NCBI RefSeq assembly: GCF_026968045.1
Contig: NZ_JAPVBQ010000004.1
Coordinates: forward strand, 248,001-312,000
Source of the DNA: Modestobacter sp. VKM Ac-2977
GTDB taxonomy: Bacteria; Actinomycetota; Actinomycetes; Mycobacteriales; Geodermatophilaceae
Direction of reading: 5' to 3'
DNA: 64,000 nt
Positions within the stretch are counted from its first letter, which is position 1; the number at the start of each line of letters is the position of its first letter. Shown here in pieces: positions 40,653 through 41,671 of this stretch. The notes under the pieces were generated by a model. That model saw only the letters and a program-made list of their open reading frames with translations. It was not told the origin of the DNA and ran no database searches. The translations under genes and the position numbers were made by a program.

Positions 40653-40991
40653 TCATGCCGCGGCCTCGGTCCGGACCTTGGGCGGGCGGCCCCGGGGCCG
40701 CTTCCGGGCGATGACGACCCCGTGGTCGAAGATCTCCCCGCCCCAGACGCCCCAGGGCTCTGCCCGGTCGAGCGCCCCGGCCAGGCAGGCCGACCGCACC
40801 GGGCACGTCGCGCAGTGCGCCTTGGCCTGCTCGAGCTGAGCCGGGCTCTCGGCGAACCACAGGTCGGCGTCCTGCACCCGGCAGGGCAGCCCCCGACGGG
40901 CCACCTCCCGGGCCGGCGCCTGGGTGGACACGTGCGTGCGGTCGAGCCCGGGTCGGCGATGGGACGTCGCGGGGTCGATCGTGGTCTGCAC
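40653..40991 (-). CDS. whiB7: WhiB7 transcriptional regulator (antibiotic resistance)
   Basis: 112 residues. Four iron-sulfur cysteines C37, C60, C63, C69 (LPCRVQD, AHCATCPVRSACL), the GVWGGE turn and a C-terminal AT-hook RPRGRPPK. The AT-hook distinguishes WhiB7/WblC from other Wbl proteins. WhiB7 binds the primary sigma factor and activates intrinsic-resistance genes when ribosomes are inhibited. GTG 40991 has AGGAAGAGGAGGAG upstream. Location between ABC1 and uvrD2 matches mycobacteria. The ORF stays open upstream to 41186, but that part is leader RNA. Confidence 0.94.
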   Translation of the reverse strand: MQTTIDPATSHRRPGLDRTHVSTQAPAREVARRGLPCRVQDADLWFAESPAQLEQAKAHCATCPVRSACLAGALDRAEPWGVWGGEIFDHGVVIARKRPRGRPPKVRTEAAA

Positions 40992-41022
40992 GGCCGCTCC
41001 TCCTCTTCCTTCGTCTGTGCGG

Positions 41023-41048
41023 CCGGTCGGCGGGGCCCCGCCGACCGG
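41023..41048 (-). terminator. Attenuator hairpin in the whiB7 leader
   Basis: A perfect 26-nt palindrome whose half is CCGGTCGGCGGGG, 31 nt upstream of the whiB7 start. In known whiB7/wblC leaders a terminator stands here. A competing 6-bp fold uses 41054-41059 with 41041-41046. Confidence 0.65.
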
Positions 41049-41096
41049 TGTGGTCGGGGTTCCGCGGAGGCTCGTCGAGACGCTGGAGCAAGACGA

Positions 41097-41131
41097 AGGC
41101 CGCGGTACCCGGTGTCCGGGTTCCGCGGCCT
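41097..41131 (-). promoter_or_regulatory. Upstream leader hairpin of whiB7
   Basis: Sixteen-bp stem with one mismatch and a 3-nt loop, starting 23 nt after the stop of the leader ORF. Its 3' arm can also pair with the imperfect repeat CCGCGGAACCCC at 41067-41056. Confidence 0.6.
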
Positions 41132-41154
41132 CGAGGAGGACCTGCTGGGCTGTG

Positions 41155-41502
41155 CTAGCCCAGTGGGTCTTCCGGGGGCAGGTCACCCGGGGTGCTGCTG
41201 GTGTGCCGAGCAGGGGCGCCGATGGCGGCGTTGCCCTTCAGGGCGGTGGTCTGGACGGACGGCAGGGCATCGGTGCCGAGGCGCGCACCGGTCGTGGACA
41301 GGCCGGTCGTGCCGGCGGCGGCGGTCAGGCCGCGGAGACGGACAGCAGGCACCGAACCGGCGGAGAACAGACCGGTGCCGTACTGCGGAGCGGCGGCGGG
41401 CGCCATCGCGACGACCCACTCGGCCGGGACGGAGCAGCGCAGGCCGACGGCCGGCGAGGTCTCGGTGCGCACGCCGGCGTTGGTCATGTCGGTGGTGATC
41501 AC
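41155..41502 (-). CDS. 115-residue leader ORF upstream of whiB7, unknown function
   Basis: GTG 41502 has a perfect AAGGAGG Shine-Dalgarno about 6 nt upstream. Codons have strong G/C third positions until near the end, so it is very likely translated. The protein is Ala/Thr/Gly-rich, with one Cys (GLRCSVPAEWVVAMAPAAA) and no recognised domain, signal or membrane helix. It lies wholly within the predicted whiB7 transcript and ends 164 nt before the whiB7 start. Known whiB7 leaders contain short upstream ORFs that sense translation inhibition; this one is much longer. It could also be an independent small protein co-expressed with WhiB7. Confidence 0.6.
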   Translation of the reverse strand: MITTDMTNAGVRTETSPAVGLRCSVPAEWVVAMAPAAAPQYGTGLFSAGSVPAVRLRGLTAAAGTTGLSTTGARLGTDALPSVQTTALKGNAAIGAPARHTSSTPGDLPPEDPLG

Positions 41503-41622
41503 GGGGCCCCTCCTTCCGAGGGTCGGAGTCCGGCCTCCCGGCCGGTCTCGCTGCGGTCTCTGGTGGTGCGGTGTCTGCTGGTGCGGTGGTGCGTCCTGGG
41601 TCACTCCCAGGTGGTGGAACGA

Positions 41623-41652
41623 AGGCTAGGGGAGCTGCCGGAGACGGGTCAA
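41623..41652 (-). promoter_or_regulatory. whiB7 promoter with AT-rich box
   Basis: Minus strand: TTGACC (41652-41647), 18-nt spacer, TAGCCT (41628-41623). Immediately upstream of -35 is GGTTAATTCGA, an AT-rich patch of the sort bound by the WhiB7 AT-hook in known autoregulated promoters. The start is predicted near 41616. Confidence 0.7.
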
Positions 41653-41671
41653 TCGAATTAACCGAGATTCC

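Follow-up and report, generated by a model that had tools for sequence, protein, structure and literature searches.

Does a ribosome on an upstream open reading frame (uORF) control both transcription termination and exposure of the whiB7 start site? An initial annotation had proposed this for a gene leader from a bacterium of soil and rock, Modestobacter (Geodermatophilaceae, class Actinomycetes), located within the window, i.e. the whole 64,000-nt stretch of DNA that was analysed. Intrinsic antibiotic resistance of actinobacteria is controlled by whiB7, which responds to several classes of ribosome-targeting drugs.

The whiB7 leader and its reading frame

For identification of the gene, protein and domain matches were used. 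The predicted product contains a WhiB domain and its top solved-structure match was WhiB7 (E 1.4e-31), followed by WhiB1 (E 6.8e-8); the closest named locus by WhiB7 protein was that of Modestobacter caceresii, at 97% identity. Upstream lies a gene for an HRDC-domain helicase of the UvrD family, the usual neighbour of whiB7. On these matches the leader is assigned to whiB7. An Rfam search of the whole window at the gathering threshold returned two tRNAs only and no leader family. All of the elements named in the initial annotation were found again on the minus strand when recomputed from the sequence. The basic layout is as follows.

40653..40991, minus strand: whiB7 coding sequence, 112 codons, GTG start at 40991 (ORF with protein and domain matches)
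41155..41502, minus strand: uORF, 115 codons, GTG start, TAG stop (counterparts with a near-fixed stop in the family)
41509..41515, minus strand: uORF Shine-Dalgarno (SD), AAGGAGG (sequence)
41623..41628, minus strand: candidate -10 element TAGCCT, after an 18-nt spacer from the -35 (sequence)
41647..41661, minus strand: TTAATT box (41661-41656) and -35 element TTGACC (41652-41647) (sequence; pattern recurs in the family)

The promoter pattern, defined as TTGA[C/T]N, 15 to 19 nt and TANNN[T/A], could be found in 61 of 66 Geodermatophilaceae leaders, which is beyond chance, and 60 of these 61 had four or more consecutive A/T within 14 nt upstream. The -35/-10 pair and AT-rich box described earlier therefore stand, and would place the transcription start near 41617, giving a leader of ~625 nt up to whiB7.

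The 115-codon ORF with its AAGGAGG was likewise borne out. Among 67 family leaders, 66 have an SD-preceded uORF of 63-134 codons, with its stop 119-163 nt before whiB7; in the exception, L059, the ORF of 102-106 codons lacks a strong SD. The strong SD and conserved reading frame point to a putative translated frame, whose sequence and length change fast except at the 3' end. The supposed contrast between this long uORF and "short" known ones did not survive: taking the longest SD-preceded ORF, a rule that favours long uORFs and is possibly wrong in single cases, whiB7 uORFs of 43-172 codons were obtained at 53 of 60 class-wide loci, and of at least 45 codons at 27 of 30 loci from family f8, apparently the Mycobacteriaceae (the name Nocardia-type used below is a similarly presumed assignment). 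Long uORFs are thus usual for whiB7, and length was ruled out as a special feature.

A clear reading frame, 63-134 codons long and behind a strong SD, could also encode a functional small protein, its translation being incidental to whiB7. This is very improbable, given that searches of Pfam and NCBIfam at E 0.01 returned nothing for the window uORF and that family uORFs drift fast except at their end, where the RNA is kept across a difference in frame (see below).

Counts on RNA refer to 65 family leaders, with L128 (divergent) and L059 (no strong SD) excluded, the latter from protein counts too; L028 and L054 were dropped with leaders cut short, and duplicates were counted once. For a set of other loci, 57 were examined and 52 counted: L085, L139, L143 and L144 gave no uORF by the rule above, and L074 was removed by hand because its ORF resembled another protein's tail. 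By the same rule 3 of 30 f8 loci and 7 of 60 class-wide loci were without a uORF. The class-wide sample consisted of 60 genomes outside the order, hand-picked down a list of 133 with a match. Loci L211-L239 were left out of all counts, and the set of other loci shares two uORFs with the f8 set (L102/L198 and L146/L181). In f8, 4 of 31 sampled genera (g39, g40, g41 and g50) had no whiB7 match at E 1e-20; these make up the 20 listed of the 21 f8 genomes without one. One record titled Bacillus sp. AZ43 and marked UNVERIFIED_ORG (L046) has a whiB7 locus that groups among Blastococcus-type loci, and is probably mislabelled.

Predicted terminator and antiterminator

Between the uORF and whiB7, two hairpins and a set of alternative pairings were examined by folding and by pair conservation across the family.

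41023..41048, minus strand: hairpin II, conserved, without a T tail (folds, pair conservation)
41056..41067, minus strand: segment able to pair with the hairpin I 3' arm after read-through (six pairs conserved)
41086..41097, minus strand: predicted terminator T-rich tail, 6 T in 12 (T-richest 12-mer after the stop, at the hairpin I base)
41097..41131, minus strand: hairpin I, predicted intrinsic terminator stem (folds, T tail, pair conservation)
41116..41121, minus strand: ACCCGG, hairpin I 5' arm, predicted antiterminator partner of 41190-41185 (folds)
41133..41140, minus strand: UCCUCCUC, 14 nt after the uORF stop, predicted antiterminator component and anti-SD for whiB7 (folds)
41135..41173, minus strand: predicted inner stem (GGA.GACC : GGTC.TCC) and apical stem-loop at the uORF stop codon (folds)
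41185..41190, minus strand: outer strand CCGGGT inside the uORF (pairs with the hairpin I 5' arm in family folds)

The T-richest 12-mer after the uORF stop was found at the 3' base of hairpin I in all 65 leaders, with a mean of 6.3 T where composition predicts 1.4. The mean stem energy of hairpin I was -28.4 kcal/mol, and eight pairs of its lower stem were kept in 65/65. On this evidence the predicted intrinsic terminator is hairpin I, not hairpin II. The initial annotation had the positions of both hairpins right, and their pairs are largely conserved: hairpin II has 11 pairs, the outermost retained in 32/65 leaders and the rest in 59-65, mostly via G-C/G-U exchange. Its label of hairpin II as the terminator is ruled out, since hairpin II has no T-rich tail and hairpin I has one. 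Hairpin II sits just before the whiB7 ribosome-binding site (RBS). The alternative pairing of the hairpin I 3' arm with 41067-41056, also proposed earlier, held up, with six pairs kept in 56-65 of the 65 leaders.

Absent from the earlier account was a predicted antiterminator, joining the last uORF codons to the anti-SD and the hairpin I 5' arm. When the RNA was folded only up to this arm, an extended stem-loop formed in 65/65 leaders. At its base, [C/T]CGGG in the uORF pairs with CCCG[G/A] in the arm, over five bases in 64 leaders and four in one; the inner stem uses part of UCCUCC, and the apical stem-loop falls at the uORF stop codon. The uORF paired with four or more arm bases in 65/65 native leaders, compared with a mean of 37% when the uORF end was synonymously recoded (20 recodings for each leader) and with 14% of folds when bases were shuffled (650 shuffles). 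Relative to recoding, the energy had a mean z of -2.8, single leaders varying from -6.3 to +1.3.

As the outer antiterminator pair, 31 leaders have C:G, 33 have T:A and a single leader has C:A. When placed on a tree built from the UvrD-family tail and WhiB7, the C:G/T:A change amounts to one exchange, plus one break, so the 64 compatible leaders are not 64 events. Counting the stop codon, 29 leaders have the start of the uORF pairing element 36 nt from the uORF end, in frame 0, and 34 have it 35 nt from that end, in frame 1, with two differing; it is therefore the RNA, not the peptide, that is conserved. RNAalifold on an automatic alignment did not recover the antiterminator, for which the support is single-sequence folds with controls. 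Folds including the hairpin I 3' arm favoured the terminator plus inner stem over the antiterminator, which would for this reason have to form first, presumably while RNA polymerase is still in the hairpin I arm.

From sequence and folds we infer the following course of transcription and translation. In the unstressed cell the ribosome would read the uORF to its stop codon and cover the last codons, leaving the RNA behind it to fold into hairpin I with its U-rich tail, whereupon RNA polymerase would stop. A ribosome stalled upstream in the uORF would instead leave the last codons bare to pair with UCCUCCUC and the hairpin I 5' arm, and the antiterminator so formed would block the terminator. 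That a ribosome-operated attenuator of this kind is the core of whiB7 control is a reading we hold with good confidence, and it is very probable that termination depends on where the ribosome stands on the uORF, a part of the original proposal that thus has comparative support.

Possible sequestration of the whiB7 Shine-Dalgarno

The second part of that proposal, exposure of the whiB7 start site, depends on one further element.

40998..41005, minus strand: whiB7 Shine-Dalgarno, GAGGAGGA (sequence, folds)

The complementarity claimed between this SD and the anti-SD at 41140-41133, 14 nt past the stop, was confirmed. With the uORF end masked, folds from the uORF stop to whiB7 paired the anti-SD with the SD over at least 4 bp in 62/65 leaders; when the 12 nt of the anti-SD were shuffled, this was seen in 23% of 325 folds. 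Without masking of the uORF end, the pairing formed in 45/65. The probability that the SD is unpaired was 0.067 in the masked state, 0.281 when the element was also shuffled, and 0.395 in the antiterminator state, i.e. downstream of the sequestered arm; it was higher in the antiterminator than in the masked state in 63/65 leaders. Even so, the SD is still mostly paired in the antiterminator state (0.395 unpaired, and 0.26 in the window itself). The exposure part of the proposal thus stands as far as a conserved anti-SD:SD pairing goes.

These folds suggest a further step. In rare read-through transcripts UCCUCCUC would pair with the whiB7 SD and keep it shut, and formation of the antiterminator would deprive the SD of its blocking partner. 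We consider the odds about even that the anti-SD also sequesters the whiB7 SD in this manner once the uORF end is masked. The competing explanation, to which we give slightly less than an even chance, is an attenuator acting on transcription only, with a uORF and terminator as described for other actinobacteria (partial view of PMC10727445 and PMC11550727). The anti-SD:SD complementarity would then be a by-product, because UCCUCC, a stem component of the antiterminator, is kept for pairing with GGAG of the uORF, and any Shine-Dalgarno resembles GGAG.

Partner swapping between clades speaks for the by-product. In 5008 swaps of anti-SD and RBS, the own partner was better in 2788, showing little specificity, and Modestobacter anti-SDs fit Blastococcus-type RBSs better than their own; covariation of anti-SD and SD, the check suggested in the initial annotation, is hence weak by this measure. 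In the same test the own partner was better in 3530/5008 for the uORF end with the anti-SD and in 3446/5008 for the outer stem. Against the by-product, the anti-SD prefers the whiB7 RBS to the uORF's own RBS in 61/65 leaders (-22.3 versus -16.9 kcal/mol), and three Klenkia leaders (L026, L072 and L091) carry a nine-base GGTCGGTCC:GGACCGACC match that extends into the spacer.

Comparison with dinucleotide-shuffled leaders cuts both ways. In Geodermatophilaceae the SD was less accessible than in shuffled leaders in 61/65 cases (0.067 versus 0.276 unpaired), which speaks against a by-product. Family f8 was intermediate (0.242 versus 0.347, lower in 15 of 20, with 20 of 27 leaders usable). The class-wide sample, with 46 of 53 leaders usable, had no such lock (0.334 versus 0.297, lower in 20 of 46), in line with transcription-only control, and the lock as a class-wide feature is not supported. 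Translational control coupled to termination through SD sequestration is thus plausible as a family-specific trait, though not established.

The +X+ motif and comparison with known systems

If the ribosome position on the uORF matters, the question arises where a drug-bound ribosome would stop. The uORF peptides were searched for Arg/Lys-X-Arg/Lys (+X+, spacing 2), with expected counts obtained by shuffling each uORF sequence.

41332..41340, minus strand: codons 55-57, Arg-Leu-Arg (RLR), proposed macrolide-type arrest site (sequence; the sole +X+ in the window uORF)

The window uORF thus carries, by its sequence, the pattern that marks a candidate arrest leader; motifs of this type can bring macrolide-bound ribosomes to a stop. 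In the family, +X+ was found in 62 of 66 uORFs (24.3 expected), four being without it, and RLR itself in 42 of 66 (1.6 expected); at spacings 1 and 3 to 7 of the untrimmed uORFs z did not exceed 0.7. Excesses were also seen in f8 (27/27 versus 13.8 expected) and at other loci (49/52 versus 34.7). Since the family uORFs are homologous, independence of the excess rests on representatives: among 64 with less than 50% identity, 58 had the motif (33.6 expected). A separate class-wide sample, collected after the idea of +X+ arose, gave 47/53 (26.7 expected; other spacings z at most 1.8), and its non-redundant representatives 36/41 (19.7 expected), with the excess at spacing 2 alone. No such excess was seen in ordinary protein segments of the window (70/123 versus 68.9).

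All 62 family uORFs with +X+ have one copy at least 31 codons before the stop, far enough, from general knowledge of the ribosome footprint, to leave the antiterminator strand bare. Of the uORFs with the motif, 22 of 27 in f8, 45 of 49 at other loci and 39 of 47 in the class-wide sample, hence not all, have a copy 17 or more codons ahead of the stop. The conserved motif, RLR in the window, is accordingly proposed as the stop for ketolide- or macrolide-bound ribosomes, a drug role that we regard as about evenly balanced between right and wrong.

The excess could equally reflect RNA structure, a peptide function or one surviving ancestral site rather than drug-dependent arrest, and we rate this just short of an even prospect. 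Homology of the family uORFs means that one old site may have been counted many times, and in Nocardia-type uORFs RxR motifs cluster at the C terminus. When the last 20 residues of the 52 other-loci uORFs were trimmed, the excess vanished (15 versus 14.1 expected), so that +X+ there may be a by-product of the RNA; untrimmed, spacing 4 was also raised in this set (z 2.7). In trimmed f8 uORFs, not only spacing 2 (z 5.5) but also spacing 5 (z 2.4) was raised. Moreover, in the part of the ErmDL study available, erythromycin stalling hardly needs the motif (PMC8298421). On the other hand, RLR is encoded by 10 different nine-mers across the 42 uORFs, the X residue varies in both the class-wide and the representative set, and the 41 class-wide representatives show an excess at spacing 2 only; no excess appears in the remaining two reading frames, although this control is near saturation and hence weak.

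Other peptide features of the uORFs were noted. GTGL is a second conserved stretch, found in 33 of 66 family uORFs (L001-L130; 0.8 expected by shuffling); QGTGLS occurs in several Nocardia uORFs (L077-L107) and GTGLS in several class-wide ones. Many class-wide uORFs (L240-L299) end in Trp-Ser-Pro-Pro-Val or a similar proline-containing C terminus just before the stop, which may reflect RNA structure or slow termination.

Returning to drug-dependent arrest, it can be joined with SD sequestration in one scheme, which we put forward tentatively, as clearly the less probable outcome. Across Actinomycetes, uORFs would carry a selected +X+ arrest site for ketolides and macrolides in an otherwise freely drifting frame, combining a general stall detector with one dedicated to macrolides; in Geodermatophilaceae, one RNA strand would unlock both the terminator and the whiB7 RBS. 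If true, the conserved +X+ site gives codon-level predictions on how whiB7 senses drugs.

Of the systems compared, ErmDL resembles the proposed arrest site in having Arg-Leu-Arg as an arrest motif in the leader ORF of a resistance gene. As described in the portion of PMC8298421 consulted, RLR is needed there for telithromycin and largely dispensable for erythromycin, and the Ser two residues before it can be replaced only by Ala or Gly without losing erythromycin stalling; in family uORFs with RLR this residue is mostly Ala (32/42), with Gly in 1/42. In ErmDL, RLR occupies residues 6-8 of a very short peptide, whereas the family sequences place its first residue between positions 25 and 61 of a long ORF, numbering from 1. 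The toiL uORF of E. coli topAI offers a likeness of another kind, one uORF responding to several classes of ribosome-targeting drugs with stalls at different places, although both genes and RNA are different; the excerpt of that paper (PMC12121999) describes stalling inside the whiB7 uORF as previously untested.

The core of the leader is the known whiB7/wblC attenuator, as the hairpin I terminator, the antiterminator and the fact that long uORFs are usual for whiB7 indicate. That system is known here from the work of Lee, Lee and Roe 2022 and Burian and Thompson 2018 as relayed in parts of PMC10727445, PMC11550727, PMC12121999 and PMC13393426. Shared with it are, as far as those parts describe it, the gene, a long leader, a uORF, an intrinsic terminator after the uORF (predicted here from hairpin I and its T-rich tail, 65/65) and an antiterminator overlapping uORF and terminator (here in predicted folds). 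A literature search found no earlier mention of +X+ in whiB7 uORFs; the 2022 and 2018 primary papers lay outside it, and earlier publication is possible. What the window adds, apparently as new features, is a family-specific pairing of the post-uORF element with the SD and the conserved +X+, neither of which is mentioned in the portions of literature compared. SD sequestration by this element, with a conserved blocked state and partial release in predicted folds (0.395 unpaired), seems new relative to the known attenuator. If it operates, transcriptional and translational control would be coupled in Geodermatophilaceae, whose leaders would be a further instance of a single RNA switch serving both termination and ribosome access.
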